DNA from: Mytilus galloprovincialis | Lineage: Eukaryota; Mollusca; Bivalvia; Mytilida; Mytilidae | Assembly (NCBI RefSeq): GCF_965363235.1 | Contig: NC_134841.1 | Span: 64,315,078-64,379,077, forward strand | DNA: 64,000 bases | Direction: 5' to 3' | Translations under genes and position numbers: made by a program | Shown here: one piece after another, positions 5,201-61,149 of the stretch | Layout: each line of letters begins with the position of its first letter | How positions within the stretch are numbered: position 1 is the stretch's first letter | The notes under the pieces: model-generated | The model's database searches: none | What the model saw: only the letters and a program-made list of their open reading frames with translations | Told to the model about the DNA's origin: nothing

Positions 5201-8200
5201 CGTATCAATTGGGAGATATATACCCCATATGCAGGTGCTGCTGGAATGTTGCTACTTAGAAATGGAAAGTTCACAATTGGAAAGTTAAAATCATCTCTTT
5301 TGTCGTAAAGTTTTGTTTTATCTCTAGTTCGATGGGATAGATGCGTTCCACATAGTCACCAAATTTTGTATTATTTAGTGAAAGAACTTCATCTATAATC
5401 TATATAGCGGAAAGTAGAGTTAAAGGATATCGCTAACTTTTTATCTTTCTTCCTAAGAAGTTCCTGCATAAAGTCAGCCTCATAATAATAAAGAAACAAG
5501 TCGGCAAAAAGAGGGGTACACTTTGTTACCATTGGAATGCCGACAGTCTGTTGAAAAACACGTTCTCCAAACGTAACAAAATATGATGTCAATCAAGAAA
5601 TCAAGCATCTTGATAATATCAGTTTCAAAGAATTCTTTGCTTGAATCAGAGTGATCCCTTACAAAGTAGGATTTATCCCTCCCTAAGACAAGATACGTGT
5701 ATCTACGTTGACCATTCTTTTATATGAAGCAAAGCAATACCAACTCTTTCAATTTGTCTTTTAGTTTGGAATGTGTAATACTTGTGTAAAGAGTAGAAAA
5801 GTCAAATTTTATAATACTATTACAAGATAAAAGAGAGTTAGATTGTATGTTCTCTAAAAGATCTTTGGAATTTTTAAGTATCCACATCTGATTCACGCCC
5901 CCTCTAGAATAGGCAGTTTCACAATAACTTTGAAGTCCGTCTTTGATTGCTGATAAAATAGGTGTTAATAATTTAGAAAGAGGTTTCTTGGAGCACTTGG
6001 AAGACCCAGCAATAATATACCGTTGTTTGTAAGGACACTTATGTAGTTTAAGTATCAAATGTTCCGTTGTTAATCTCAGTAATCATTAGAAAAAATAAAG
6101 TTTCAATTTCGTCAAGCAAAGTAAAACTTATATGTGACAACTTTTTCGATCCTCTTTGGTCTTTTCGCTCATCACGTATTCAAATATTTATAAATACTCT
6201 CCTATTAAATTATAAGTTTGAATGTTTAATGAAGATTAATCCAGAGGAAAACGCTTTGGACGCACGAAATAATAAAGTATAATCTAACCAATATGTACGT
6301 AAACATGTTGTGCATACTGTAATATTTCCTATTAGAAATTGAAAACATATGTACTGGAAGTTAATAAATGGAATCTAAATAAGAACCACGTGTCAAGATC
6401 GTGTAATGTCGTAAAACATAGGTTTTCTTTAATATAAAGCAACAATATATATGTGTTATATATTTTAAGTCTCAACTATTTGAAAATTGATATGAAATAT
6501 AATCAGTTTTTGAAATATGTTTGCTATTTGTTACTCCAAAAATGTTTATATTTTGGTTTTATACCTTGATGTATATTTTAACTTTTATCTTTGAAAGACA
6601 TTACAACAGTTACATAAATATATATATTGACTTGTGGAAACAATGATCGTGTGATACGCGTCTTATTTTGTGCATTTTATCATTTATCATATTTTTTTCA
6701 AATCAAGCGACGAATATGATATCTAGAATTCAAAGACCACGAAAACATTTTGCTAGAGAGATGAGACACACACACAATTTGTATCGGGCAACATATTCGT
6801 GATGGGGACCATAAAACATGTAGTATCAATTTCAGTCGTTCTTCCATAAAACTAGAGTTTTTGTGGCAGAATCACACTCTGGATAATTATTTTAGCATAA
6901 TATCGATGTATTATTATCAAGGGATACCAATTTTCTTTCATTTAATGGGTAGAAAAAAACACGAATTGAAATGTTCAACGAAGCATACATTTTCTATAGT
7001 CTTTTTTTGCAGCTTTTCCAAGAAAACTAAGATTTTTCCTCAGTCCATGGAATTTAGATCCACGACAATAAATAAATCCATATTTACCTGTTTGACAATT
7101 TACGTCAGAGTACCCTGGATCACAAGAACAGCTGTATTCGTTTACATGATCTGTACAAGTTCCGCTATTCTGACAAGGATTAGAGGCACATTCGTTTATG
7201 TCTTTAAAAAAACAACATTTTATCAAGTTAAATGTAATTGCAGCATTAATGGATACTGTTGTTTTTTCTATTTTTTCCTAATTAGAAAAAGTGTTAAGAA
7301 CGAATACTTTTATTAGCAGATACATTACTTGTTCAAAACCAAACATATATATTTTCGAACTGTAATGCTACAGACTTCTTCTGTAAAATGTTATTAGTGC
7401 TTATTTCAATATTATATATATTTTCCAATTTATGAACCCATATGTCAGTCATATGAACTGTAAGTAATCAAATGTTTTGGATATCAGCACAATTTAAAGT
7501 TTCCTAAACAAAAATGAAAATAAAAAAGATTGTTCTGAAATCTAATTGGTTCGATAAGTCTACAAAGGCACAGTAATACACAGAAGTCTTAGACTTATCA
7601 TAAATATCAGGATTAAAATTGCAAACCCGATACGCGCATTTCGTCTACAACATTGAGAACAAAAATGCCGTACGATAAAATCATACATTAAACAATCCAT
7701 TTGCGTCTCAATGAAATTTTTATATAAAAACGTATAAAGGACGTTTTTTTTTCAAACATTTCAGGTTTTTTTTTATTTGAGTACTGTAATTAAATCAGAA
7801 TATAAATGTTGTGACATACATATTATTTCCTTTTTTTTAATTTAAACCTCGTTTTATTTGTTTTAATGATGAGATAGTAATACCTGATTGACAATGCACT
7901 CCATCATATCCGGAATCACAAGTACAACTGTATCCATTTACATGATCTGTACACGTTCCGCTATGTTGACAAGGGTTGGAAGCACATTCGTCAATATCTA
8001 AAATTATATGATTATTGAAATTTTGATAATCTTTAGAATAAACCTGTACAAAATTTGGCTTCAAACATAATAATTAAATAGAATTGGAATGAATAAAATA
8101 AACTTGCTGAGGAGTTTTTTTTTAAATTTGAAAACATAAACAGTACGATTTTAAGTTACGTAACGCAAAGACTTTAACACTTTATTGATTAAGTTATTAT

Positions 8201-18704: not shown

Positions 18705-18960
18705 CGTACTTTGACAAATGGAGAACAAGCCAAACAACAAACTTTGATTTTTTTCGAAAAAATAAGAACTTTCTTATCCCAGGCATATATTACCTTAGCC
18801 GTATTTGGCACAACTTTTTGGAATTTTGGATCCTCAATGCTCTTCAACTTTGTACTTGTTTGTCTTTATAAATATTTTGAGCGTCACTTATGGGTCTTAT
18901 GTAGACGAAAAGCGCGTCTGGCGTACTAAATTATAATCCTGGTACCTTTGATAACTACAA
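18705..18960 (+). repeat. Hammerhead-type retroelement repeat, decayed monomer
   Basis: Shares TTATCCCAGGCATATATTAC, CTTAGCCGTATTTGGCACAA and CGCGTCTGGCGTACTAAATT with the intact copy at 52063-52480. The catalytic core reads CTTATGG instead of CTGATGA, so the ribozyme should be inactive. Confidence 0.7.
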
Positions 18961-20164: not shown

Positions 20165-20345
20165 AAAAGGTACCAGGTTAAACAAATTAATACGCCAGAC
20201 GTGCGTTTCGTTCACACAAGACTAACCAGTGACGCTCAGATGAAAAAAGTTTGAAAGCCAAAACAAATACAAAGCTAGAGAGCATTGAGGATCAAAAGTT
20301 TCACAAAAGTTGTGACCAATACGGCCAGGGGTATCCGCCTGTGAC
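20165..20345 (-). repeat. Hammerhead-type repeat, decayed, minus orientation
   Basis: The minus strand reads GAGCGTCACTGGTTAGTCTT then GAACGAAACGCACGTCTGGC and GGTACC. This is the hammerhead repeat with a mutated core (CTGGTTA), and with the upstream CCGTATTGGTCACAACTTTTG part retained. Confidence 0.7.
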
Positions 20346-20349
20346 AAGA

Positions 20350-22140
20350 ATGTCCTTATTATTTAGAATAATTCATACTTTTGCAAACAGTAAATTTAAT
20401 GAAATGACTATATAAAAGATATACATGATAAAACTGAAGTAGTGACTATCTACAGAATAAAAACGATACATCACAAAAATACACAGCCAGTGCAACGCAC
20501 AAAGTGACGTCACATTTGAATATCTAAAACGTGTTCTCAAAGTTATGAAAGAATTTAGATGGAATTCAAGATTAGATTTGTAGAAAAGATATATGAACAG
20601 AGTTTTTAGTAGGGGCAGCATACTTGATTTTCTACCACATTAATGTTTTGCGCTATTCATCATGTACTTTTTTATCTAGAGCAATTATTTGATTTTAAAT
20701 TGAGAATCCTTACTTTAAGAACATATATACGACAGTCATTTACTAATGAATAACCTAGGCTTATACAGAAATAACTCTTCAAATTAAATATACTATGTCT
20801 GAAATTTAGAAAAACAAGCTTAGTTATGAAATTAGTGTAGCCAATGCCTTGCTTGTGATCGTTTCACTCGCAGAAATAAAGTTATAAGTCCTATTTTAAT
20901 TTTCAATATTAGTGTATATCATATACTAAAACCCCAATGTTGCCTAGTAAATAATTTTTATAGAAAAAATTGCAGGGTGTTACTAACCAAAATGAAAATA
21001 TTTTTATTCGAAAGACAATGTACACATAATTTCAAAGTTAGGTTTGATTTTTTTTTATAAGAACTTCGTTCTTAAAGTTTTGTACAAAATTACGGTTTTG
21101 AGCACCTTTAGGTGATAATAGTTTTTTTTTACTCTGCGTTGAAATAAAACTTTATATCTTACAGGCATCAGAGTATACACATTGTGCTTTGATACTGTAC
21201 ATTTAATTTAGAATTGAAAGACCACTACACAATAATCGAGTTGTTACATTTATTAAGAGGACATTGGCCCACATAAAATCTCAGTTTCAAAGCGTCGAAT
21301 TACGATTTTAAATGACGATAAAGTACATCAATTATACTAACTTAATTCACAATTCGTCACAAGATATCTATCTTAAATACAGATATGTACCAGGTTAATA
21401 AAGGCAATAGTAGAATACCACTGTTGAATAGTCATAAATCTTGTTATTTTCAATCAAATGTTAAAAACAATATTTATAATCGATTGTTTCACTGTAAGTT
21501 GTATTCAATTGAATAGAATATATAATACAAAAGGAAAAGTTGAAGCGGAAGCGGAAGTTTTAGTATAACTGTTTAAAACAAATTTATGCTTTTCTTTATA
21601 AAACTGAACAGTTTTTGAAAATAAAACATGTTCAAAATTATCAAGTCGCTCATAAGAATCAGAATCTGGATATTTATTATTCTAGTCTAGGTCCCTTGGT
21701 GCGTAACATGATATGTACACACACACACAAATAATACATTGTGATTTATAACAGAGAAACATAATTTTACATTTAAATGAAAAATTAAAGTTCATATAGA
21801 TATTATCATGAAATAGCTACATATATTTCTTCATTTCATTTAAATATAAATCACTAACTAATTTAGTTCCATTCAGCCGGGAAACCATTAAAATAATCTT
21901 CGTCGTTACGTATATTAATCTACATTTCGTCTAACATCTATTGTTAACATAATTCTCTAAATATGTCAGGGAAGGAAAATGTTCATGAAAAAATTATCAA
22001 ACAAAAGTTTAAAAAGAATGTTTTTTTTTAAATTAGCTCGATCATGAAATTTCACATTTAGATATATTGATGAAGTTCTTTCCAGTAACAATCCAAACTT
22101 TTCTTATTGGGTCCATCGATATATCCTCCAGAACTAGCGA
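20350..22140. other. No gene recognised
   Basis: AT-rich intergenic sequence. Only scattered simple repeats such as ACACACACACA (21719-21729) were seen. Confidence 0.35.
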
Positions 22141-25498: not shown

Positions 25499-27209
25499 CT
25501 GAAATGAATTCAAAACAATGATTAGTGTACATATAACCTTATTCGGGAATAAAACGTATAATAATGAAAAGAAATATGATTTCTCAAAAGGCGAATTTAA
25601 ACTTTTGTAACAGTTGCTGAGGGTAAAAAAAATATTTGGGTAAGAATAGTTTTTGCAGACTCATAACATTAACTGAATGCTCTAAAATGATCTTCTTGAT
25701 TTAATCGTAGAGTATATTAAGTAAGCATTACTGATCATGTCTTTGCGTCTGGCGTAATAAATTATAATCCTGGTACATTTGATAACTATTTACACCACCA
25801 CTGGGTCGATGCCAATGCTGGTGGACGTTTCGTCCCCGAGGGTATCACCAGCCCAGTAGTCAGCACTTCGGTGTTGACATGAATATCAATTATGTGATCA
25901 TTTTTATAAATTTTCTGTTACAAAACTTTGAATTTTTTGAAAAACTAAGGATTTTCTTATCCCAGGAATATATTACCTTAGCCGTATTTGGCACAACTTT
26001 TATGTGTCCTCAATGCTCTTCAACTTTGTACTTGTTTGGCTTTACAACTATTTTGATCTGAGCGTCAATGATGAGTCTTATGTAGACGAAACGCGCTTCT
26101 GACGTTATAAATTATAATCCTTGTACACTTGATAACTTTTATTGTCTGCAACGTGTATGGCATTAAACAAGCCCTCTGAACAGAAGATAATAGGTATGAA
26201 CTTAGGCAACTGTGACACACAAGCGTACAAAGTCTTCTGGTTTGCATTTTTTTGTAGTAGTCATCCAAATTTGCACTTTGAATGCATGTTTTTAATGCGT
26301 TTATGTTTGAAAATGCAACTTATTTGGGGGAAATCAAAAATTTCTTTTATACAAGTCAAACATATTATTATTATTAAAATATAAATATCGACCAGAATGA
26401 TAGACGGTTTCTGCTTGCAAGGAAGCTATTCAATCGAGAGTTCCAAGTGATTAAAATGAAGTAATCCATTCAAAATTTTAACAGACATCATCACGAGTTA
26501 TAAAATATTTACTTCATAGATGACGACGGATATGTCCTTTATGCGTTACCATAATTCCGTCCTCTTTTCCTCGAATGAGGCCTATATATTTAGACTTAGC
26601 AAAACTTAGTCATTTGGTATCTGATGAATCGTCCGAGTATAATATACGTCTGTTGGGTTTTGAAAAGTTAGCCTCATTGCTCTTAAGAAAAATCATTTGA
26701 ATGTAATAAATTTCATACGTATAATTTGTAGTTCTTTTCTATATTTTACTACATTTTTGTGTACTGGAATGCACATTGTTTTTGTTTTTCTTATTTTTCA
26801 AATATTCATAACATATAAATTATTCAAACATTTAAGTTCCAACTCCCTATGGCATAGTGTACGTTCGGTCAATTGGGCTTATCTTTCAGGTCCCTTGTAG
26901 TTTCTGAGGTTTTTTATATGCCAGTCAATCTTCAAATGTGCGAGTTTATTCTAATGATACTACTTTTGCTTCTGTAATTTTTCTTCTTTCGTTTTTTTCT
27001 TTTGAATAACATCAATAGTATTGACTACGAACGTGTAAGTTGCTGACGTGCTACTGACGTGTTACTGGCGTGTTATTTCCTTCTTTACTGTAAGTATTAA
27101 TTGTACAGTTTCAACTTTTTGATGTATTCGACTTACAATCGTGTGGTAAAAGACATGCAAATAACAAAGAAGTATTTAGAACGCCTGTTTTTTACCATTA
27201 TACTAATTA

Positions 27210-29030: not shown

Positions 29031-29229
29031 TTTGAACAAATCTGTTAGGTAATGCTGTAATGAGATACAATATTTATGACAAAATGAAACCAATTCAAAT
29101 AATATAAGATGTCCATCTTATTGTTTCCTTTTCGAAGATGCTGTCGCATGGAAAATTAGTTGGTATTAAAAGATTTTATTTAAATCTATGATCAAAATCA
29201 TTCAAATATTGAATTCAGTTATAAATTAA

Positions 29230-29470
29230 CTGTTAAAAAAAACTTTGAATGTTTGAAATACTAAGGCTTTTCTACCTCAGGAATAGATTACCCTAGCTGT
29301 ATTTGGCAAAACTTTTAGTAATTTGTGGTTCTCAATGTTTTTCAACTTCGTACTTTATTTGGCTTTTTTAACATTTATTTTTATTCGAGCGTCACTGATG
29401 AGTCTTTTGTAGACGAAACGAGCGTCTGGCGTAGATATAAAAATTTCAATTCTGGTATCTATGATGAGTT
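29230..29470 (+). repeat. Hammerhead-ribozyme terminal repeat of a retroelement, monomer
   Basis: Contains the family's TTTGAATGTTTGAAATACTA...CCTAGCTGTATTTGGCAAAA block and a complete hammerhead at 29389-29432 (see separate entry). It is followed on the same strand by retroelement-like coding sequence, as expected for the terminal repeat of a Penelope-like element. Confidence 0.75.
29389..29432 (+). ncRNA. Type I hammerhead ribozyme, complete core
   Basis: Stem I 5' strand GCGTCA (29389-29394), core CTGATGA (29395-29401), stem II GTC/GAC with loop TTTTGTA, GAAA, minimal stem III ACGAGCGT, cleavage triplet GTC (predicted cut after 29426), stem I 3' strand TGGCGT (29427-29432). All conserved catalytic positions are present and stem I pairs fully, allowing one G-U. 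Confidence 0.8.
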
Positions 29471-29479
29471 TAATTGCAA

Positions 29480-33774: not shown

Positions 33775-35170
33775 GTAACCAATACAATTTTTTGAGAGCT
33801 AATATAACCTGAACTAAGCCCGTACAAGAAACGAAAGATATGCGTGAAGGAAACGTTCTTTGATTAAAAAAAATATGCTTCTTATACATTCTTGGGTTTC
33901 CAATATTCGGCTTTGGCCGGTTTTTTTTTTTGTGTGGTTAGTCTAGAAAAGCGCTTCGGACACATGAAATTTATAACGTGAGATTTTTTTTTTTCATTTC
34001 TTATAGTACTCAGTAGGTCGATATCGTTGCAGATAGACTATTAGTCCCCGGTGGTATCATCAGCTCAGTAGTCAGTACTTTGATACTGACAATCTTATAA
34101 TGAAATATAGCAATTATTTCTTATAATGTCCACTATATGAAGTTTGAAATTATAAAGAAACTGAGGTTTCAACTCTGCAAGGCAACGTTGACTTTATAGA
34201 TAGATATAACTAATTATTGTAAGTCCTTTTTAGTTATAGAGCAATAGCCGTATTTGCATGCCAGTACTGGAGATTTTAACATGCTTGGATGGTGATTGCC
34301 GCGGGAAGCAACAGTCGAACCAGTGGTAACAATAATCTTAAACGGTATCAATTTTACTGCACCAGATGCGCTATCTCATCAGTGTTGCCCGAGGACGAAA
34401 TATATTTGTAAATCCAAAACATTGATACTAGCTTTAAACGGTAGAACAAAAACTGCGATGCTATACATTATAATCGTTTAAATACAAATGTATTGCAAAA
34501 GATACATTATTTTTAAGAATATTTGAAACAGGTATTTCAAAAGTATGAATTTGAGATTGATTTTTTTTTTTTGCCGCGAGTAAAGAAAGTGAAACTTTGC
34601 ATTCACCTGGGAAACAAGCTTTACGTCATCTGCAATCTTTTCTCAATGACATATGTTTAAGATAGTAATCGCCAAAAAAAATACATGACCAAGGATTTAA
34701 GTTATTAAAAATATATGTATAAAAATGTATGTTCAATTGCCTTACCTTCAATACAAAATGATACTGTCAGCTAGTATCAACAGATATAAAATGAACTGTT
34801 TGGTGTTTGAAGTAAATTTACATTATTTGAATAAATATTGAATGTTGATGACATTTTCCATTGTTTAATAAATTCATAATGGAGATTTCATCAGATGATG
34901 GCACGAACAAGCATGCAGACATCAATAATCAAACATTTGAATAGCAATATCTAATTGAAACAAAAGTTGATGTGCAAACAATATAATTGTATCAAAATAA
35001 TTTGTGTGTGCATAATCGGTCGTGATTTATATTTCATATATAATCTATTCTCTTCATGTAAAATCGAAGCTATTTCATTGGCCAGTTTAGCCGATAGCGG
35101 TATTACAATATTGAACATACATGTATTGGGGGAAATGTTGATAATTGTCAATTAGTTAACGGGTGACAAG
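33775..35170. other. No gene recognised; decayed hammerhead-family pieces
   Basis: 33990-34100 has GTAGGTCGATATCG and GGTGGTATCATCAGCTCAGT, which is the 5' block of the hammerhead family. 34355-34400 (minus orientation) has CACCAGATGCGC...CTCATCAGTGTTGC, a decayed hammerhead region. Both are fragments. Confidence 0.4.
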
Positions 35171-47300: not shown

Positions 47301-50300
47301 ATAACAATATTCAGCCTTTTCATTTCTATAAGGGTTAATGACTTGACCCTGTAGGGTGTTTATTTAGCAATATGATTGCATAGACATTTAAATTTATAAT
47401 TCACATAAACACTGGTATAAAATGCATTTTTTTTTTAAAGTTTGGATAGTTGAAACAACACATGGAAATTAACAAGGTATTAATAATCCTAAAATATTCA
47501 AATTTTGTATTCTGCCTACATAGAAGTAGTGGAGAAAAGAATGAAATTGAATTTTCAATCTTCTAGAAACATGACTCTCAATGGTTATCTGTATAAAATG
47601 TATATATTTAGCTATAATACTATGAAACTACAACAAGACTTTACTATTTTGTGTTAAAATAAGCTTAAAAAGTCTTATTGCCCAGTATTACCCAGTAATA
47701 CCAATTTCTGGGAGTATTGCCCAGCCCGGGAAAACCCGGGAATTCCCGCCTGGGTTTTCCCGGGCGGGTAATAATTTGCCAACCAGGTTAAGTACTAAGG
47801 GAAAACAAAAGGCTAAGCAGTAGCTGGAAAAAACAAAATGAAGAAAAAAATAGTAAATTTTACTCACATTAAAAAATTCTGAACTATATCCTGTCAGTAT
47901 AACTGGTATGGCTTCAAACAAACACTAATTAAAATAGTAGAGGAGATTCTATATAAAGTTTGTTACCTGATAAAATGTTTGACAACAAATAAAAGAGAAG
48001 AGATCAGTAATTTTGTGATGAATAATTTCGGTAAGGATTAAAGATGGCAGTGTCAACAATATTTGTTTAAGTTTGTGATTTTGTTAGAAAGGTGAGATAC
48101 ATCTGTGTTAACAGTTCATTGTGATATTGAAGCCAACATTAAGATTTGCATGGAAAATTATTTAAATCACCACTTTAGAATCTGAAGGATTTTTTTTTTT
48201 TTACCCCAAATCAAATTAATGTCACATCATTGGCTTAAGAATTAGAGCCAGTAACCCCAAAAGGGTTAAAACAGCACTGAAAAGGTGTATTTTGTAAAAT
48301 TCAATTATTTGGATAAATTTTATGACCATGTATTGCTAAATGTATTATTTTTGTAAGAATAATTAGATTATTAAACATCAGCTTCATATATATTAGCTTG
48401 AAATAGGAATAAATTTAATTTTAGTCAAATTTTTCCAGAAATTTTTTTCTTTTTTTTAAACTTTTATTTTTTTAGATTAGCTGCCACCCTTTCCCCAGAA
48501 AAAAAAATTGTTGAAGAGAAAAGAATAACGTTTAAAAAGAGAAAAATTCAGCAAAAATATGTGTGAGCGAGGGGTGACACCACTTTTTTTTAAAACTGTC
48601 ATTCATGATGCAAAATTAAGCAAAAAAATATGTTTTTATCAAAACTATCCTACATTTATGAAGTCACAAATACATCACTAATGAGGCAATTTGTGGAATT
48701 TTACAATAGGACATTTAAACATGTGTTTTCATTGAATTTTATAATATTATTTCAGATTATTTATTTTTAATTTTTAAGGGCACAATTATTTATGAACCAA
48801 CTTGTTAAGGAAGTTTTTAATCAAGTACGTCTTGGTGTATACTTTTGAAAATATTACCCATAGTGCATTAGATTCTGGAACAGCAAGTTACTCAGGCGAA
48901 GATAAATTCTTTGTCTGTAGACATTTGTCTAAGGGCATCTTAGTATATTGTAACAAGCTTTGTTATAACAATGTTTAAATGAATTAACTTAACTTTTTCA
49001 GGTATGTTACTTGGAGAAGTGATTAAACATGAACATGTGTCAAAGCTTGCCTTGTCTTATTACCTTGGTTGGTGTACATTGTTATTGATATTGGTAGCAG
49101 TGACCTACTATACAATATTACTGATAGGATTGGACCCATTCTGGTCTATAGCTAAAGCAGTTAAATGGTGTGCCAACCCAGACTGGGTACATCCAGATAC
49201 GTCATTATTCTTCAGTATAGATAGAGATATATCAACATTATCAGGTAATATGTAGTAAACAATATAAGGTCATTGTTATAATTTGAATTTTTATGCCCCA
49301 CCTACGATAGTAGAGGGGCATTATGTTTTCTGGTCTGTACGTCCGTTCGTCCGTCCGTCTGTTCATTCATCCGTCCGTTCGTCCCACTTCAGGTTAAAGT
49401 TTTTGGTCAATGTTGTTTTTGATGAAGTTGAAGTCCAATCAACTTTAAGCTTAGTACACATATTCCCCATGATATGATCTTTCTAATTGTATTGCCAAAT
49501 TAAAGTTTTGACCCCAATTGCACGGTCCACTAAACATAGAAAATGATAGTGCAAAGTTCAGGTTAAAGTTTTGGGTCAAGGTAGTTTTTGATGAAGTTGA
49601 AGTCCAATCAACTTGAAACTTAGTACACATGTTCCCTATGATATGATCTTTCTAATTTAAATGCCAAATTAGAGTTTTGACCCCAATTTCATGGTCCACT
49701 GAACATGGAAAATAATAGTGCGAGTGGGGCATCCGTGTACTATGGACACACACTTGTTTTTTTTAAAGGATGCTTAGAAACTTAGAAATGGCAAGATTCA
49801 CTGTTCCCCAAAACTCTTTTCTTCTGAATACAAAATAATTGGGGTTTTTTTTGCTGCTACAAATGGCTACGATTACATAAACTGAAAGGATTAATTTTCA
49901 TCCCAAAACAAACCAAAGAATATGTAGAAAAGTGAGGTGACATGAAATCAACATTGCACAAAAAAATACCTCTGCTACTATTTTTGGGGAATAAAGACAT
50001 CAGGCAATGTTTTAGTGTACTTTGCTACAGTACTATTGACATAGGACATATAAGACTTTAGATCCTAGTATTATTGAATGATTGGTGTTTTGTTTTATGT
50101 TCAGTGGCAAATATAACAGACAATTTGAGGACAAGAACTAAATGATAAGAGACAATGTAGACTTTTAAACATTAAGTCATCAGGTACCAGTCTCCACATC
50201 ACTTTAAGAAATAAAGTATAACATAATCACAATTTAACTAACTTGGTTTGAAGTGAGAAACACATTTCACAATTAGACTGTCAATGCAATTTATACAATT

Positions 50301-51279
50301 CGCTGTTTCAGAATCTATTGCATTCTTGGTAATATTTTCAAAAGCATACACCAATTTAGCAAAACAATGTAATTAGTATAAAACATTTTAAACAATACAA
50401 ATTCAACCAATAAAGTAATGTTCTTTTCATATTGGTGTACCAACAATGAGATTACCCTTAGTCCTTTAGATTCTGAAGATTGATTTGAATAGTGAGGGTT
50501 GTTAATATTTGTACAAAAATAGATTTTGCTGAAAATTCATTGCAACAATGCAATGTATGGTCATGTATTTAAGGAATGACTGTAATATTTTTTCTGTCTA
50601 TGAAGAAATAACATTAAAAATTTGGTGCACACTAAATAATGCGCGTAGCGGGTTATTTAACAGTGTGCACCACATTTTTTATGTTATTTCGAATAGACAG
50701 AAAAAATATTACAGTCATTTCTTATAATTTAATTCTAAATTTCATTTTAAACCGTAGAAAACCATGAAAAAAACGTTGATGACGTCTCGGTCACATGACT
50801 AAATTATGTCTATGGGCTCATAACAAAATAACGTCAGCCAATCAGAAGACGCGTTACATCCAAAATTTAATTATATCTTGATAGTAAATATTCTTAAAAG
50901 AAGCTAGACCTGTTAATTTTGTTTCACCATTTTCCCGAAGGCATTTCAAAAATGATTTTTTTGGCAATTTTTAAATTATAAGAGAAAATTATAATCTTGC
51001 TATCTCTGTTTTTCAGGTTTTGGAGTCAGTTTGTACCTAGCTAAACATCTGAAAGTAGATAGCGAGTTAAGAAATCCCATGGTTAAATGTCTCCAGATTA
51101 TACTGAGTATAGCAGTTACATTGACAATGGAGTCATATAAAATCCCTCATCAAAATGAACTTATATTCTACATCGGAGGATTCGTCAAATTTTTCTCCAT
51201 GGTCAATATTGTTGTTGTTGTTATACCATATTGTTTGAAAAAATGTTTTCAACCTGTTGAAAGAATAAAAAATTCATAA
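41295..51279 (+). CDS. G6PC: Glucose-6-phosphatase catalytic subunit, complete, seven coding exons
   Basis: Hydrolyses glucose-6-phosphate to glucose in the endoplasmic reticulum, the last step of gluconeogenesis and glycogen breakdown. Join of 41295-41399, 41818-41975, 42369-42481, 43859-43946, 45396-45514, 49002-49244 and 51017-51279. The total of 1089 nt gives 362 residues, close to vertebrate G6PC (about 357). The phosphatase signature is complete: K87-x6-R94-P95, P-S-G-H at 128-131, and S-R177-x5-H183 followed by F-P-H-Q. By analogy the nucleophile is H183 and H131 the proton donor. Several hydrophobic helices are spread along the chain. The C-terminus ends R-I-K-N-S, a weak match to a KKxx-type ER retrieval signal. 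Vertebrate G6PC has five coding exons, so two extra introns are present. All introns are GT-AG except intron 3, which reads GC-AG. Confidence 0.93.
41818..41975 (+). CDS. G6PC: G6PC exon 2
   Basis: Acceptor TTTTGGCAG; encodes D-P-R-Y-A-F-L-I-Y-F-P-L and the K-W that begins the first phosphatase motif. Donor GTAGGT, phase 2. Confidence 0.9.
42369..42481 (+). CDS. G6PC: G6PC exon 3
   Basis: Acceptor CTTTTCAG; encodes I-L-H-G-E-R-P-Y-W-W and ends C-E-T-G-P-(G). The only donor that keeps frame is CAG|GCATGT, a GC donor, phase 1. Confidence 0.88.
43500..43690 (-). repeat. Dispersed mussel repeat in G6PC intron 3
   Basis: The minus strand reads AGTTTGACTGTCCCTTTGGT and GTGGGGTTCGTGTTGC, the family of 16850-17030 and 39345-39530. 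Confidence 0.65.
43859..43946 (+). CDS. G6PC: G6PC exon 4
   Basis: Acceptor TTTTCTAG; encodes S-P-S-G-H-A-M with the catalytic PSGH motif. Donor GTACCA, phase 2. A MITE begins 21 bp into the next intron. Confidence 0.9.
43967..44175. repeat. 209 bp MITE with TACTGTAAATTCAGAAATTA ends in G6PC intron 4
   Basis: TACTGTAAATTCAGAAATTA at the left and TAATTTCTGAATTTACAGTA at the right are exact reverse complements, with TGCG/CGCA motifs following inside. I recognise the end sequence as a widespread animal MITE type. It lies only 21 bp from the exon 4 donor. Confidence 0.85.
44208..44577 (-). repeat. Dispersed repeat, right arm of inverted pair
   Basis: The minus strand carries the full family block. 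Its 44305-44577 part mirrors 40636-40917 with few differences. Contains GAGACAACTCTCCATCCAAA and the GGTGTCAGTGCCAATG edge of the ATCATACCACATCTT family. Confidence 0.75.
44580..45390. other. G6PC intron 4, remainder, no gene seen
   Basis: AT-rich intron sequence without supported features. Confidence 0.4.
45396..45514 (+). CDS. G6PC: G6PC exon 5
   Basis: Acceptor AATTACAG; encodes the S-R-L-F-I-A-T-H-F-P-H-Q active-site segment. Donor GTTAGT, phase 1. Confidence 0.9.
45548..45960 (+). repeat. Dispersed GGCCCCACTATACC/AGAGGGGTCATT repeat in G6PC intron 5
   Basis: Starts ATGGCCCCACTATACCAGAG and contains two diverged internal units, each ending ...GAGTTATGTCCCTTTA (45770 and 45892). The architecture resembles the repeat at 49290-49755, a family frequent in molluscs. 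Confidence 0.5.
45965..46755. other. G6PC intron 5, no gene seen
   Basis: No supported feature. Confidence 0.4.
46767..47784. mobile_element. 1.0 kb hAT-like non-autonomous element in G6PC intron 5
   Basis: Left end CAGGGTTGGCAAAAACCCGG; right end CCCGGGCGGGTAATAATTTGCCAACC. Both ends carry reiterated ACTGGGAAATACTGGG / CCCAGTATTACCCAG words. Flanks TGGTTAAG (46759-46766) and AGGTTAAG (47785-47792) match at 7 of 8 bases, fitting the 8 bp duplication of hAT elements, as does the CAGGG tip. No transposase frame; the interior is AT-rich. Confidence 0.7.
47800..48995. other. G6PC intron 5, remainder, no gene seen
   Basis: No supported feature; simple T-rich runs only. Confidence 0.4.
49002..49244 (+). 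CDS. G6PC: G6PC exon 6
   Basis: Acceptor CTTTTTCAG; two hydrophobic helices plus the W-C-A-N-P-D-W-V-H segment conserved in G6PC. Donor GTAATA, phase 1. Confidence 0.9.
49290..49760 (+). repeat. Mollusc ATGCCCCACCTACGATAG repeat with a tandem 169 bp pair, G6PC intron 6
   Basis: Begins ATGCCCCACCTACGATAGTA, then a CCGT(T/C)CGTCC-rich stretch. Two tandem units of about 169 bp follow (49391-49559, 49560-49728), both with TTTTTGATGAAGTTGAAGTC. The end is GAGTGGGGCATCCGTGTACT. GCCCCAC at one end and GTGGGGC at the other are inverted tips. Confidence 0.7.
49765..50570. other. G6PC intron 6, no gene seen
   Basis: No supported feature. Confidence 0.4.
50574..50721. repeat. 148 bp hairpin MITE in G6PC intron 6
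   Basis: Left GAATGACTGTAATATTTTTT... and right ...AAAAAATATTACAGTCATTTC pair over about 60 bp, including GTCTAT, AAATAACAT and GTGCACACT. A small GC-rich loop (GCGCGTAGCGGG) lies in the centre. Same design as 2507-2653 and 4147-4292, with a different sequence. Confidence 0.8.
51017..51279 (+). CDS. G6PC: G6PC exon 7
   Basis: Acceptor TTTTTCAG; encodes G-F-G-V-S-L and two C-terminal helices, stop TAA at 51277-51279. A possible AATAAA polyadenylation signal is at 51971-51976, about 690 bp downstream. Confidence 0.9.
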
Positions 51280-51284
51280 TTGAC

Positions 51285-52060
51285 CAAGTGTTGTGTATAA
51301 ACATCAGTGGCGGTTCCAGGGGTTAGAAACTCTTTTTTTGGACGATCAATGCAATTGAATTATGAGTTAAGGATTGCATAAAATGCTACCAAAACATTTA
51401 CATTACTGGCTTGATATTATTACTTCAAGACATTTTATCTACCTAATACCTAGGGTTTTTTAACAACATTAGTGCATGAGAAGAACATTCTTCTGCAACA
51501 TCAATAGGCGTCTTTTCCTTTCCTATATTTTCTTCCAATTATACCAATCAAGAAAAACTCAAATTACCATACTCCATCCAATTTTTAACTATATTAAGTT
51601 ACAATGACCCTACATTTTGACAACTTGACTAATACTGTAATGCACGGATATTCGACATTTAGTGAATATGCCTGCTGGAAGACTCATGGTTATGGCTATG
51701 TTATATCATTGTGATGACAATGGGGTTTTTTTTAATGTTATATTTTCTGACACTATTTTTGTTGCTTGACTGGTCAAAAGGGCCATGTAAGCTACCAGTA
51801 TTGCCATCACTTGGCGTATGTTGACATTGTAAACTTTTAAACTTTTATAAAGATGTTCTGTTTTGATACTACTGAAACAATTTCAGCAAAACGTTTGTTT
51901 GATCTTTAGCGTAACTAGTTAAAAGTTTGTTGTTTTTTCGTCAGTCAACAAACATTGCCACCATGGCAAAAATAAAACATAAAGAGGAAAGATGCATTTA
52001 TTGTCTTATATCTTGAAAACTACAATAAGTTAGAACAAAAAACAAACAAAAAACTTACAG
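51285..52060. other. 3' flank of G6PC, no further gene seen
   Basis: Contains the presumed 3' UTR. A lone CAGTGGCGGTTCCAGGGG at 51306 resembles the tip of the CAGGGGCGGATCCAG elements, but no partner end was found. Confidence 0.4.
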
Positions 52061-52062
52061 GT

Positions 52063-52106
52063 GTGTCACTGATGAGTCTTATGTAGACGAAACGCGCGTC
52101 TGGCGT
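52063..52106 (+). ncRNA. Type I hammerhead ribozyme 1
   Basis: Stem I 5' GTGTCA, core CTGATGA (52069-52075), stem II GTC/GAC with loop TTATGTA, GAAA (52089-52092), minimal palindromic stem III ACGCGCGT, cleavage triplet GTC (cut after 52100), stem I 3' TGGCGT. Every conserved position is present. The two-base stem III loop is typical of hammerheads thought to work as dimers. Confidence 0.85.
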
Positions 52107-52398
52107 ACTAAATTATAATCCTGGTACCTTTGTTAACTATTTACACCACTGGGTCGATGCCTCTGCTGGTGGATGTTTCACCCCCGAGGGTATCACCAGC
52201 CCAGTAGTTAGCACTTCGGTGTTGACATGAATATCAATTATGTGGTCATTTTTATAAATTTCCTGTTTACAAAACTTTGAATTTTTCGAAAAACTAAGGA
52301 TTTTCTTATCCTAGGCATTGATTACCTTAGCCGTATTTGGCACAACTTTTTGGAATTTTGGATCTTTTTTTGTTTGGTTTATAACTATTTTGATATGA

Positions 52399-52442
52399 GC
52401 GTCACTGATGAGTCTTATGTAGACGAAACGCACGTCTGGCGT
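52399..52442 (+). ncRNA. Type I hammerhead ribozyme 2
   Basis: Stem I GCGTCA/TGGCGT, core CTGATGA (52405-52411), stem II GTC/GAC, GAAA, stem III ACGCACGT, cleavage triplet GTC (cut after 52436). The distance to the first cut site is 336 bp. The stem III palindrome is broken by one G-to-A change, but the three base pairs remain. Confidence 0.85.
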
Positions 52443-52913
52443 ACTAAATTATAATCCTGGTACCTTTGATAACTAATTAATGCTTAGAATGCTAAGATCT
52501 ACCAACTTTCTGTTAGCAGCAAAATTATCTGATTATTCCTCAAGGAGTTATAGTCTTTGAATGATTAGATCTGACACAAATGTCAATATAACCATTTCTA
52601 TCAAATAACTACTTATTGGAGTATAGGAGTTATTGCTCTTAAAAAATGAGGGTTTTACACATTTTTCGAGTACCTTGTTTTGCTTCTAATGTGTTAACAG
52701 CAAAATTATCAGTATATAATTCAAGTTCTATAAGAATGTCATTAAGACCGACCCCATTTGCTCAGGACCCCTTATAGTAGTGATTCGGACTGATTCCCCT
52801 AAAATTATGAATGTTGGCCTATTATTACATTGAAATGTTTTTATATGTCCCATCTAAGAGTGTTTGTAAATGTGTGCACACAATATGTGCAAAGAATATC
52901 ACAGAAAAGGGGT

Positions 52914-53055
52914 TATCATAAAGTGGGTGATAGAAATAAAAGACGTCTTGACTATTTGATAGATGTATTAGAAAAGCATAGTAACACGTCAAGGTGACGT
53001 GACGTTACATAAAGCGCGGTACATCGTAAACGTCCAGTGTGAGGTATTTACAATA
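52914..53055 (-). repeat. BEL/Pao 3' LTR
   Basis: 142 bp, begins TATCATAAAGTGGG and ends TATTTACAATA in plus orientation. It differs from the 5' LTR at only a few positions (for example ACATCGTAAA against ACATAGTAAA), so the insertion is not ancient. Confidence 0.88.
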
Positions 53056-53225
53056 TACTGGGGGCCGCACAAAAGTGAAATTAGCAAAAAATTACTAAAT
53101 TACATTGAATTTAGCCATTAAGAAAATAAAATAACTGAAAACTTTAAGCATTTCTCAAATGAATTAATGTCCATGAAAAACTAAATTGAATCTCGCTATT
53201 AACACATTTAAAGTCTTTGTATAAT

Positions 53226-55938
53226 TCACTTAGTCCATTTCTTTATCTTCTCCATGGCAACCATTTTAGCTTTGCGACATGTTTTAGATGCACAGTCTGA
53301 ATTGTCATTATCGCTATTCAAACTAACTTCAAGTGGGTATAGTTTTGTGATCGGACTCGATGTTAGTCCATTTTTGGTCCGTATGACGGTAGATCTTGCT
53401 AGTCCGTCTCCTCCTACATGGAGTTTTTCGACAACGGCTAGTGTCCATTTGATCCTCTGCGAATCTTCATAGATTTGTACCACGTCTCCTATGCTGACCA
53501 ACTGTTTATTGTTCCCTGTATTGCGATGATATTCTCGAAGAGCTGTTAAATACTCATGTTTCCATTTATACCAAAAACTTTGAATAATCTGTGTTTTCAT
53601 CTTAAACAGTTTATTCGTAGATTTATGTGTCATACCATTTTGTGAAGGTTCCAATTGCTGATTCGTAGGGTAAGGTAGTGATGTTATTCTACGTCCGTAA
53701 AGTAAGTGGGACGGGGTGAGCGGTTCATCTAATGGGTCGGATGATACATATGTTAAAGGTCTGTCGCAGCGAATTAATTTGTCTTTAGCTATGTATAATT
53801 TGAGTTGTTTGACAAGGTTGTGTTTTTCCCCCTCTCCTGTTTGCAAATCTTGAATGATTTCTGAATAATGCTTTTTCTGTGTGTATTGTATCCACGTTAT
53901 AGATGCGTTTTGTATTTCGATCGTGTTTAACATCCTGTTTGTATAGCTCGTGTTCTACAGTTTGTAATAAATCTTCTCAAGTAAGCAGTAATTCGAAGAA
54001 GTTTCTTGAATGAGTTGAATTTATTCAAATCGATGACATTTCCGATCCCTTGTATCATGTGTATAGTAAATTTGTTCTGTGTAGCTTGTACGGTATCTAC
54101 TACGACTTCTTGCTGTGCAATAGTGGATAAAACTATTGCTTCATCTGTGTGCCATTCTGGCCAACTATCTTCTTCTGTGAGCCAACCTGGGCCATGCATC
54201 CAAAGTCTGCATGTTGTCTTTGAACTTGTCTATGGTTATCCCTCTTGACAGTAAATCAGCCGGATTTGACTCACTTGAACAGTATCGCCAAGTCAACTCT
54301 TCTGTTAGCTCTGTAATTTCTTTAACGCGGTTTGAAATAAATGGTTTTAAAGTTTTCTTTGAACTTAACCAGGTCAAAACTATCTGGCTATCACTCCATA
54401 AAACTGCACGGGTTATCTGCAAAGTGTTCCTAATGTGTGCTAAAAGTCTGCTTCCAATTAATACTGCAGCCATCAATTCTAACAGGGGCGGATGCAGGAA
54501 TTTTCGAAAGGGGGGGGGGGTGCTAACCCAGGGCACCCAGGGCAAAGGGGGGTGCAAAACATATGTCCCGATACAAATGCATTGATCGGCAAAAATAAAG
54601 GGGGGGTGCGCACCCCCGGAACCCCCCCCCCCCTGGATCCGCCACTGTCTAATCTGGGTATTGTCAGTTGTTTCAGAGGTGCTACTCTGTTCTTTGTCAT
54701 TATTAAAGAACTTTTTCCGTTTGCGACAATGTACGCGCATGCGCCGTAGGCTTTCATACTAGAGTCCGTGAATACATGAATAACGTTGTCGTTGTTTGTA
54801 CCTGAACTTTCATCAAAATAATGTCGGGGTACAACTGTCTTTGTGGCTTCCTGTATATCCTTTCTGATATTCACCCATTCTGTGATCGTTGAGTCAGGTA
54901 GTAATTCGTCCCAGTTAAAGTTTTTCTCCCATATGTTTTGCATTAACATTTTACTGCGGACGGTTATAGGGCTTAATATTCCTAGCGGGTCATAAATCCT
55001 TGATGATTGTCTTAGTACTTCGCGTTTTGTTATTAGTTCTGATGTATCCAGATTAGGCGTAACGAATCCTAATGTGTCACTGGTTGTATCCCATCGTAAT
55101 CCTAAGATTTTGATTAGTTGATCTTTGTCTATAACGTTTTCGGTTCTTGCTAATACTTGTAATAGTTGACTGTTCGAGGCCCATGAGCGCAAATTAAATC
55201 CTCCATCTGCAAATAAACTACGAACGAGTTTAAAGTATTTCAACAGTTCTTCTTCTGATTCAAAGCTTGATACAATGTTATCTACATATAAATCTTTGGT
55301 AAGTTTTTCCGTGAAATCAAATGGATTGTTATTCAAGTGCTTTGATAATACGGCGTTCAATATAAATGGCGAGCATGTAGCACCAAATAGTACGGACTTG
55401 AATCTGTATGTTGTTAAATCGCTGTTTGGGTCTGTTGGTTTACTCAACCAGAAAAACCTAGTTACGTCCCGGTCCTCAATGTCCAGTCCAACATTTAGAA
55501 ACGCCTTTTCGATGTCTGTAGATACTGCATACCTATTCAAGCGGAATCTGAGTAATATGGCAGTGACTTCATTTAATTTAGGCGGTACATTCAGTAAGCA
55601 GTCATTCAAGCTAGCACTATCTGGTGTCTGTTTGCAACTACAATCATATACGATCCTGATTGGCGTCGTGACTGAATCCTTCTTTACTGGGTGATGTGGT
55701 ATGTAATGCAGCTTGATATTTGGTTTGATTTCTTCGTTATCAACCCTCTCAATGAACCCTCGCTTTTCCTGCTCATCATGTTCTCTAAAGTTCTTTTCTT
55801 CTGAGTGACTACTTCTAATAATGTTGAAATTTCCTCATAATCCGCTTCGGAACTTTGTTGAATTTCTTCAAATTTCTTCAGGAGTTTCGTTACTGCACCT
55901 TTGTGTCCCGCTCGGACGGCTTTCATCTTCGTATCCAT
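53226..55938 (-). pseudogene. BEL/Pao gag-pol pseudogene (gag N-terminus, reverse transcriptase, RNase H, integrase end)
   Basis: In minus order: a gag N-terminal fragment (55938 to about 55770, begins M-D-T-K-M-K-A-V) runs abruptly into pol at about 55770. Pol contains H-Y-I-P-H-H-P-V-K-K, a reverse transcriptase part with S-T-D-I-E-K-A-F-L-N and a DNI motif (D-L-Y-V-D-N-I-V, replacing YxDD as is usual in BEL/Pao), then V-F-T-D-S-S of the Pao-type domain. After the nested element it resumes with RNase-H-like S-D-S-Q-I-V-L-T-W-L, then an integrase-side segment (about 54199-53760) and the integrase C-terminal part to 53226 (P-L-T-P-S-H-L-L-Y-G-R-R). The integrase core is missing near 53765, and a frameshift lies near 53930. 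Non-functional. Confidence 0.85.
54483..54647. repeat. 165 bp MITE nested in BEL/Pao pol, with perfect target duplication
   Basis: Ends CAGGGGCGGATGCAGG and CCTGGATCCGCCACTG are imperfect inverted repeats. TCTAA flanks both sides (54478-54482, 54648-54652). It splits the pol codons of P-R-L-E-L-M-A-A. The interior is dominated by G runs at the left (11 or more) and C runs at the right. Same end type as 36829-37360. Confidence 0.85.
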
Positions 55939-55947
55939 TTCCCTTTT

Positions 55948-55960
55948 GGTTACGGCACCA
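55948..55960 (-). promoter_or_regulatory. BEL/Pao primer-binding site
   Basis: The minus strand reads TGGTGCCGTAACC three bases inside the 5' LTR, the position where tRNA-primed minus-strand synthesis starts in LTR retrotransposons. The TGGTGCCGT-ACC form is common in BEL/Pao elements. Confidence 0.7.
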
Positions 55961-55963
55961 TAA

Positions 55964-56105
55964 TATCATAAAGTGGGTGATAGAAATAAAAGACGTCTTG
56001 ACTATTTGATAGATGTATTAGAAAAGCATAGTAACACGTCAAGGTGACGTGACGTTACATAAAGCGCGGTACATAGTAAACGTCCAGTGTGCGGTATTTA
56101 CGATA
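55964..56105 (-). repeat. BEL/Pao 5' LTR
   Basis: 142 bp copy of the 3' LTR; shares GTGATAGAAATAAAAGACGT and AACACGTCAAGGTGACGTGA. Adjoins the primer-binding site at 55948-55960. Confidence 0.88.
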
Positions 56106-56199
56106 GGGGTGTTGCTGTACTTAGGATGTACTTTTTTAGAAAATCGACGAGACGTTCTTTGACATAAATAACCCTTGTTCATCAACTTTCTGCCCAGAC

Positions 56200-56960
56200 A
56201 CTGATGACATTTTACAAAGTCTGAGTAGCAGCTGCATGCTCTTGAATACCTAATGAGTTCGGAAATGTATATCCCCTATGCAGGTGAAATTGGTAAATTG
56301 GTTAAAGGTAGTGAAAACGGATCATTTCAAAGTAAAAATCGTCTTGCTTGTCATAGATTCTGGTACTGACCTTACCGCTGATGTCAAAAGTCTAAAAATG
56401 AGTCCGAGGAAGTTTTGTCTGTTGTTACTTTAATTTCTAGTTCTGGGGATTATATAAATGGAACCCAATCAGAAAAAAATAGATTGTTAATTATGGAAAG
56501 TACATCATCACTATATCTGAATGTGCAATAAATGATCTGGTTTCTTTGATCTTCTTGTTTTTATTTGACAAGTGTCTACAGGAACTCTGACTCATGAAAA
56601 TAAGGAGAGGTGCACAGTTAGTTCCCATTGGAATGCCAACAATTTGTTGAAAATATCTACCTCAAAGTTCATCAAATGTGTTGTCAATAAGAAACTCTAG
56701 CATACTGATAACTTTTTCTTCAGTGTATAATGTTTCAACTTTTTATTTGAAAATCAAAATTTCAGATAAAGATCGAGATTTAAAATTACTCAGAAGTTCT
56801 TCATGTTTTGTTTTTTTTAGAAAATACATACGGTTAGTACCACTTCGCAAAAAAACATTTTCACAGTATTTCTGAAGACCTTCTTTCACTGTGGACAGAA
56901 GTTTTGTCAATAATAGTGCATTGAGCACAACATTCGATATCATTTTATCTATGAACAATC
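56200..56960 (-). pseudogene. Penelope-like reverse transcriptase relic
   Basis: The frame at 56958-56743 has L-L-S-T-V-K-E-G-L-Q-K-Y-C-E-N-V and N-R-M-Y-F-L-K, equivalent to the [12 protein letters not shown] region of the copy at 5720-6058. Further down the minus strand lie I-V-G-I-P-M-G-T-like sequence (about 56640) and P-I-Q-(V)-G-I-Y-I-S-like sequence (about 56270). Many stops; no intact YxDD. Confidence 0.6.
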
Positions 56961-56964
56961 ATAA

Positions 56965-57605
56965 AATTTATGTGATATGTAGTATCTGTTCTAAAAAATA
57001 GTAATTATCTTATTGTTAAAGAATATTTAAAATCGGAGTTATGTTTCTTTGTTCATCATGTAGTTACCAACTTCAATTAAAAAGGCTCTGTTTAATTTTT
57101 AATTCCAACTGCAAAACTTGTTAATCAAAAGTAAAAAGGGAGGAGTTATCCAGTCAGTGTTTTAGTATTTTTAAAAACTAGAACATCAAAATAAAAATAA
57201 ATTATGAAAGGACCTTTTTGTAAGTATGTGCAGATAGATATTTAAACATCTCGAGACTGAAAACATTTTGAGCAGATAAAGAACATGGTACTTTCATATC
57301 TAACAGAATCTTGATAATGATACATTTTGCATAAACACCATGTTCAGTGGCTCAAATTCCCAACCACAGACATTCAGTTTAAATGACATGGTGAAAGCCA
57401 GACACACACGAAAAAGAAGAATTTGAAAAATTCTCGAAATTGAGGCCAATGTTGGCCATTATAGCCCCTTCTCCTTTGGCCATTTGCTTCGTCCTGTAGT
57501 ACAACCCTTGTAAAAGTGGTTGCTGTGCTGGATGTATAAATTCGCCTAATTCCATTCGAGAATGGCCCTGGAACGTTGATTCCCATGCCTCATGTAAAGA
57601 GAATG
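56965..57605. other. No gene recognised
   Basis: AT-rich; nothing supported. Confidence 0.35.
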
Positions 57606-57608
57606 CAA

Positions 57609-57825
57609 TTTTATCTGTAGGTTAAGAACCCTTGCAACAACTCTTTGATGGGTAATTTTATCTGTACACTTTGCTGGGTAATTTTTTCTGTACACTTTGC
57701 TGGGTAATTTTTTCTGTACTCTTTGCTGGGTAATTTTTTCTGTACTCTTTGCTGGATAATTTTATCTGTACAATTTGCTGGGTAGTTTTATCTGTAGGTT
57801 AAGAACCCTTGCAACAACTATTTGA
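57609..57825 (+). repeat. 26 bp minisatellite (five units) inside a 40 bp direct repeat
   Basis: Five tandem 26 bp units of the type GGGTAATTTTTTCTGTACTC+TTTGCT run from 57650 to 57779, with a partial sixth. Both sides carry TTTTATCTGTAGGTTAAGAA+CCCTTGCAACAACT (57609-57643, 57787-57820). Unit variants (ATTTTAT/ATTTTTT, CACTTT/CTCTTT) show stepwise expansion. Confidence 0.9.
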
Positions 57826-57829
57826 TTGT

Positions 57830-60367: not shown

Positions 60368-61149
60368 ATGGATGAAGAAGGCAGCAATTGGCAGGATAGA
60401 TGTGAAAGATATTTTACTTCTTTAACGGATAGTGACAAACAAAGACAACGGGACAAGAAATTGAAAGACAAAATGGATGAAGACTGTTGGAAAAAACTAA
60501 CTGAAAAGACGGATAAAAGTAGGAGAAAAAAGAAAGTTCAGTATTGGTTCCGTGCTTTGGATATTCATGGATTACATTTTGCTGGCTCTGTTCGGAACAG
60601 TTTAGAATGTGTTGTGTGGGTCTTGTTGACAATAATTGCATGTGGTGCACTCTCGTTTCTTCTTTATTTGACTGTGAACGGTTATTTGAACCAAAATAAT
60701 TATTTGGAACTGAAAATGTCTTCAATGACTTATAAAAACCATCCGCCTACATTTGTAACTGTATGTAATTTGAATTTATTTAGAAAATCCAGTCTTTTAG
60801 CGAATCAAGGCAGATTTTCAAAACTTGTTAATATTAATTCAGGGGTTTTTAGTCCCCAGCCCGTAACGTCTACGGAGCAGCTTATGAAAAACTCCGATAT
60901 TTGGTCTATACTGAAAAACTCTGGAGTCCTTTCATATGCATCACAGTTGGACCAAGATTTTCTCCCATACTCAGGGATGATAACATCTGATGACTGGGGA
61001 AGTTTATATGGAGCTAGTATGAAATACGGCTTTGGAGTATGGACAGAAGCCGTAAGACCCACGTTGTTAGAATTAAAACTTCTAGGACACAAACCATCTG
61101 ATATGATAGTAGAATGTTTTACAGGCACCGGTGGACTTTGTCAACTAAG
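60368..61149 (+). CDS. DEG/ENaC family sodium-channel subunit, first coding exon (partial gene)
   Basis: A plasma-membrane cation channel subunit of the degenerin/epithelial sodium channel/ASIC superfamily; such subunits assemble as trimers. 260 codons from ATG to a donor CTAAG|GTAATT (phase 2). Features: a charged cytoplasmic N-terminus of about 60 residues; the conserved gating His-Gly (67-68, in LDIHGLHF); TM1 at about 80-103 (W-V-L-L-T-I-I-A-C-G); then the family's post-TM1 motif P-T-F-V-T-V-C-N-L-N (127-136) and the start of the extracellular domain. The cysteine-rich region, TM2 and the G-x-S selectivity filter must lie in later exons, which I did not find before the right edge. It resembles molluscan peptide-gated or acid-sensing channels, but the subtype cannot be fixed from this exon. 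Confidence 0.9.

Follow-up and report, generated by a model that had tools for sequence, protein, structure and literature searches.

The window, that is, the whole 64-kb stretch of DNA analysed here, contains a 553-aa frame (23852-25513, minus strand) that matches the secretin-family domain 7tm_2 (55.8 bits) and lies 0.2 kb from a retrozyme copy at 25745, a 600-aa open frame (27291-29093, minus strand) without a Pfam match at E 0.001, and a 261-aa frame (60368-61153, plus strand) matching the amiloride-sensitive sodium channel family (ASC, 35.7 bits). A remnant of a BEL/Pao LTR retrotransposon was found at 53226-55609 on the minus strand, its RVT_1, Peptidase_A17 and DUF5641 matches being in separate frames. 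Tandem repeats are present at 49388-49721 (169-bp unit, two copies) and 57643-57796 (26-bp unit, about six copies). In total, the window holds seven pieces of a retrozyme family, listed in Table 1 together with the parts of the element at 52 kb, referred to below as the window copy. Subfamilies A and B are our own labels.

Table 1. Pieces of the retrozyme family in the 64-kb window and parts of the window copy
Feature	Position	Strand	Details
Short old family fragment	7595..7649	-	76% over 55 nt
Second subfamily A copy	18739..18957	+	left-truncated single unit; hammerhead core changed
Old diverged family fragment	20166..20448	-	~77% identity
Third subfamily A copy	25745..26140	+	slightly more than one unit; hammerhead altered at core and cut site
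Subfamily B copy	29219..29472	+	left-truncated; one intact hammerhead core at 29395
Short old fragment of unit body	34016..34091	+	75% over 76 nt
Retrozyme insertion, subfamily A (window copy)	52065..52479	+	~1.2 units, 415 bp; unit alignment from position 351 to ~71-75
Left type I hammerhead ribozyme	52063..52106	+	Rfam Hammerhead_1 31.0 bits, E 1.5e-5; predicted cut after 52100
Right type I hammerhead ribozyme	52399..52442	+	Rfam Hammerhead_1 30.1 bits, E 3e-5; predicted cut after 52436
Predicted released RNA unit, 336 nt between both cuts	52101..52436	+	no ATG frame longer than 26 codons
3' terminal stretch past second cut	52437..52479	+	ends with GATAACTA and a few further bases, as inserts of the family usually do on the right

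An 82-aa frame without a Pfam match stops at 51279, and an AATAAA occurs at 51971, between this stop and the window copy. The earlier note had placed the element 0.8 kb downstream of the stop of a host gene; the stop is there, while nothing in Pfam speaks for a host gene. As the genome is so full of copies (seven pieces in this window), the nearness of the element to this stop is probably incidental.

Hammerhead motifs of the window copy

Both type I hammerheads reported in the earlier note were confirmed at exactly the positions given there, as were the two predicted cuts 336 nt apart. Each motif has the full set of core bases (CTGATGA, GAAA and GTC). Stem I, described earlier as fully paired, does have six pairs on both sides, including three G-U wobbles in the left motif and two in the right one; stem II has three pairs in each. 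Stem III is minimal, as had been noted, being formed by an A-U and a C-G pair, with a further G-C pair only across a 2-nt loop. The unit alignment of the left motif stops at 52065, inside stem I, and the outer two stem I bases of this motif (GT) may, judging from the alignment, be flank or a changed element base; GTGTCA was seen in one or two others of 106 cores. Stem I is paired at all six positions in 87 of these cores, which come from the fetched loci. Covariation in stem I did not exceed that in shuffles (mean 5.774 pairs against 5.769, a value reached by 177 of 500 shuffles), since the stem varies too little for covariation to show.

A 30-nt motif with at most three mismatches was found five times, against 0.00 expected in shuffles of the window. 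The covariance-model check named in the earlier note gave an adverse result: the curated cut-off of Rfam Hammerhead_1 is 34 bits, both motifs score below it (Table 1), and a scan of the whole 64-kb window at the gathering threshold listed no family. Other family members likewise fall slightly short of 34 bits (33.0 and 30.3 bits at locus L079). These scores were not taken as a refutation, because the evidence from the family as a whole is far stronger than one score.

In isolation, the left 44-mer has a modelled energy of +1.4 kcal/mol as a hammerhead and -8.1 kcal/mol in its minimum-energy fold (gap 9.5), and the right 44-mer -3.4 and -8.9 kcal/mol, respectively (gap 5.5); neither adopts the hammerhead as its minimum-energy fold. 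Folded as a circle, the 336-nt unit was not clearly more stable than its shuffles (z -1.1). The earlier description of the ribozymes as catalytically complete stands for the core of both; their activity is predicted, less strongly for the left one, which looks weak in the folding model.

The two ends of the window copy form a 79-nt direct repeat (52065 and 52401, 96% identical, spacing 336). Hammerheads in direct repeats of 150-450 bp, in dimers to multimers, are a feature of metazoan non-LTR retrozymes and are present both here (336 nt) and elsewhere, as 354-nt arrays. Aligned with the unit of an array on contig C7, the window unit differs by 11 substitutions and is 18 nt shorter in net terms (336 against 354 nt); by this alignment it is a deleted form of the 354-nt unit. 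Its G+C content is 38%, i.e. below 50%, as in metazoan non-LTR retrozymes, and when the 336-nt unit is read round as a circle, its longest ATG frame has 19 codons on one strand and 26 on the other. There is nothing unusual about the window copy, a dispersed and slightly decayed one that has lost 18 nt and whose left ribozyme appears weak.

The chances are even that this particular copy is a retrozyme fossil, giving rise to no circle as its left ribozyme is too weak; this reading is compatible with the insertion route preferred below and was judged separately from it. Its left stem I is made partly of wobble pairs and perhaps partly of flank, the modelled energies of the left motif point the same way, and so do the differences from the C7 unit. 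However, all core bases are retained, nearest-neighbour folding ignores tertiary contacts, and the published mussel ribozyme is reported to cleave though it is without most of the usual loop contacts (PMC7229834).

Genome-wide family and related elements

The genome searched consists of 331 contigs with 1,384,861,812 bases in total. Matches to the core pattern CTGATGAGTC(5-9)GACGAAACG(2)CGTC number 18,649 (9160 and 9489), while the reversed control gave none in the same 1.385-Gb genome. No match to the fixed-length core pattern was found in viral contigs, and a literature search found no paper containing a 24-nt piece of the motif. A 418-bp query gave at least 76 matches (40 scored of 3990 first-look candidates), including a 354-bp tandem array on C7; matches of this query and of the GIY-YIG search described below were placed on contigs C1-C14 and C42, a distribution consistent with, though no test of, the 14 chromosomes of Mytilus mussels. 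Family units are about 354 bp long and occur both dispersed and in tandem. Two subfamilies, A and B, are about 80% alike and differ in the tail and in the loop of hammerhead stem II; the 23-nt tail of subfamily A has 10,478 exact places in the genome.

The C7 array (L009, C7:1054000-1063900) contains 18 long 354-bp units with a mean difference of 0.2%, and is either very recent or homogenised. Among the 20 loci with at least two long units, 15 have a mean within-locus difference below 0.06, compared to a between-locus mean of 0.081, a value weighted by the 18 C7 units. Differences of 0.078-0.080 were obtained at L075, L077 and L078, and higher ones at L033 (0.117) and in the window (0.093), both of which hold separate inserts; at these five loci, units resemble one another no more than they resemble units from elsewhere. 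The likeness of units within multi-unit inserts fits several laps of copying round one circle; later duplication of DNA could do likewise.

A non-LTR retrozyme has been described in Mytilus galloprovincialis by Cervera and de la Pena (2020; PMC7229834), who reported about 5000 copies of the hammerhead belonging to two families, repeat lengths of 350-390 bp, self-cleavage at about 0.1 per minute and circular RNA on Northern blots. The family found here matches this metazoan element by features rather than by clone sequences: as presented in that report, the two have in common type I hammerheads, two similar families, units of about 350-390 bp, low G+C content, dispersed and tandem occurrence, and thousands of copies (PMC7229834). 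They differ in copy number, with 18,649 exact cores here against about 5000 in the report, and the window unit (336 nt, with its deletion) is shorter than the published repeats (PMC7229834). Measured cleavage, observed circles and in vitro ligation are on record for the mussel element or its relatives, whereas the return of metazoan retrozymes into DNA via circle templates is put forward there as a hypothesis (PMC7229834).

Plant LTR retrozymes share with the present family the organization of a non-autonomous element flanked by hammerheads and the circular RNA (predicted in the present case), but are described as having type III hammerheads instead of the type I found here, as well as LTRs, a primer site, a polypurine tract and 4-bp duplications (PMC7229834). 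Metazoan non-LTR retrozymes have no LTR, primer site or polypurine tract, and any target duplications they show exceed 4 bp. The class named in the earlier note, a retrozyme whose RNA could be cut and circularised, was the right one, with a family of 18,649 cores and a published mussel counterpart behind it. For the same reasons, the apparently intact dimer without coding sequence that the note had singled out is the usual form of the family. Altogether, the earlier observation is confirmed and its interpretation partly supported.

Insert ends and flanking duplications

The ends of 60 subfamily A inserts with at least 86% identity were mapped, inserts below this identity being excluded from the end counts. 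The set includes 19 inserts in best-hit loci, three copies from the window, the C7 array (L009), L018, and 36 inserts in loci picked for an intact core, so that copies truncated inside the hammerhead are under-sampled and some end types are possibly hidden. Loci of the latter kind (L029-L079) cover 60 of the 100 core-pattern places listed, from the total of 18,649. L001-L008 were dropped as duplicates of the window or of the array, and L030, L031, L036, L042 and L046 as overlapping duplicates; L055 and L056 were left out because they lie next to L054 and are nearly identical to it. In L009 and L018 the left end is beyond the fetched stretch, and these two were excluded from the left-end and flank tests. 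The three copies L054, L055 and L056 (C1:2395892, 2402107 and 2408320) share their near flanks and follow one another at intervals of about 6.2 kb, an arrangement suggestive of local tandem duplication of a segment carrying the insert.

Right ends are concentrated in one place. In 51 of the 60 inserts they fall within unit positions 71-78, roughly 39 nt beyond the ribozyme cut, or in 49 of 58 without L009 and L018 (29/36 inserts in intact-core loci, 17/19 in best-hit loci and 3/3 window copies). The nine remaining right ends are at unit positions 36, 52, 56, 63, 66, 67, 139, 183 and 218; none of the 60 mapped inserts ends at the cut itself (unit position 32). Base-by-base agreement with the unit extends to A71 in 48 of the 51 inserts and declines over positions 72-76 (43, 39, 27, 27 and 15 of 51). 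Subfamily B has its right ends at the matching place, before TTTACA-CCACTGGG, an assessment made by eye on 25 tails, some of which are A tails or internal joints.

Left ends, by contrast with this common right end, are scattered round the unit, their distribution being not clearly non-uniform (Rayleigh length 0.21, n=58), and aligned insert lengths vary from 89 to 1362 columns. Five of the 58 left ends are at unit positions 24-34, near the cut (binomial p 0.034), an interval chosen post hoc, so that this is a lead only.

In-register flanking duplications of at least 6 nt (6-13 nt) were found in six of 49 inserts, the best being 13 nt long (L028), and are absent from the other 43, including the window copy, where the longest in-register match is 1 nt. 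In the control with shuffled partners the mean number of such duplications was 1.23 and the maximum 5, none of the 500 shuffles reaching 6. A looser test pointed in the same direction, with a mean longest match of 5.45 compared to 4.97 in shuffles, one of 300 shuffles reaching the observed value. Inserts that share one right end, vary in their left ends and have short duplications are the outcome of target-primed reverse transcription by a non-LTR element. The titles and abstract openings searched revealed no work on the insert ends of metazoan retrozymes.

Proposed insertion route and alternatives

The window copy is, with high probability, a dispersed insertion of a metazoan non-LTR retrozyme; it would have entered the genome through reverse transcription of joined RNA. 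In the proposed route, source loci would be transcribed into multi-unit RNA, which the type I hammerheads would cleave to give units of about 350 nt; by analogy with the mussel element or its relatives, these units could then be closed into circles by a host ligase. At a nick in the DNA, the reverse transcriptase of another element would use such a circle, or else an uncut multimer, as its template. Judging from the insert ends, copying would begin at one fixed site, immediately ahead of TTTACACCACTGGG and about 39 nt beyond the cut, while its end point would vary, from less than one lap to several. The window copy would be one such product, now with an 18-nt deletion, and a circle derived from it is putative.

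As the right end lies about 39 nt past the cut, the copied RNA would have been continuous across the cut, i.e. a circle or an uncut multimer and not a self-primed linear unit released by cleavage. The end pattern and the duplications together fit target-primed reverse transcription of an RNA that runs on across the cut, and the end pattern, without being proof, supports the published circle-template hypothesis. The wider proposition that mussel-type retrozymes insert by target-primed reverse transcription from one fixed internal place of cut-joined RNA, most simply a circle, is offered tentatively, as a possibility somewhat short of an even chance. If it is true, the genome would contain thousands of fossil records of reverse-transcribed RNA circles made by ribozymes. 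The 3' joint shared by the inserts, about 39 nt beyond the cut and at the matching place in the two subfamilies, together with the scattered 5' ends, makes the insertion hypothesis testable from genomes alone, and the joint is a sequence to seek in candidate partner elements. Retrozymes of this kind are already known, and the window copy by itself adds one more genome assembly to those holding them; the pattern of insert ends is the addition, and the part that most deserves the attention of specialists.

Alternatively, the family could be satellite-like tandem DNA spread by unequal exchange or DNA circles, with the ribozyme being incidental. Some loci are indeed long homogeneous arrays, such as the 18 nearly identical C7 units; this reading is nevertheless highly unlikely, as many of the inserts mapped are dispersed and do not reach the length of one or two units, and as the common right end, the variable left ends and the flanking duplications of some inserts argue against it.

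Another alternative is that the hammerheads belong to a larger Penelope-like element, as part of its pseudo-LTR, and that the window holds a remnant of it. Penelope-like elements are reported to carry minimal type I hammerheads and share with the window element the minimal stem III and the tandem arrangement (PMC7761336). The genome has GIY-YIG matches at no fewer than 147 places (150 scored of 1001 first-look candidates), and open frames there reach 911 aa. However, Penelope-like elements are protein-coding (reverse transcriptase, often with a GIY-YIG endonuclease), whereas the window element has no protein-coding frame and, at 415 bp, is too short for one. No GIY-YIG match was found in the five Pfam-scanned frames among the 17 of at least 70 aa at 45000-60000, where the sole reverse transcriptase is that of the BEL/Pao remnant on the opposite strand. 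Locus L080 (C13:29485500-29490300) encodes a Penelope-like 613-aa frame that matches GIY-YIG at 31.4 bits and RVT_1 at 28.7 bits, slightly short of the cut-off of 29.6 for the latter; no hammerhead pattern occurs in its 4.8 kb or in three 3' flanks of a second GIY-YIG family (L081-L083). Neither L080 nor these flanks match the retrozyme unit at E 1e-3, the best match being at chance level (E 0.10), and a reverse-transcriptase partner was thus not found among the two GIY-YIG families sampled. The Penelope-like origin is the least probable of the readings considered.

At L079, a GIY-YIG fragment lies near retrozymes; these are separate copies, on both strands and of both subfamilies, and the proximity was read as coincidence. 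L080 also contains an inverted partial copy of its own 3' part, recognised by a 152-aa minus-strand frame at 633-1091.
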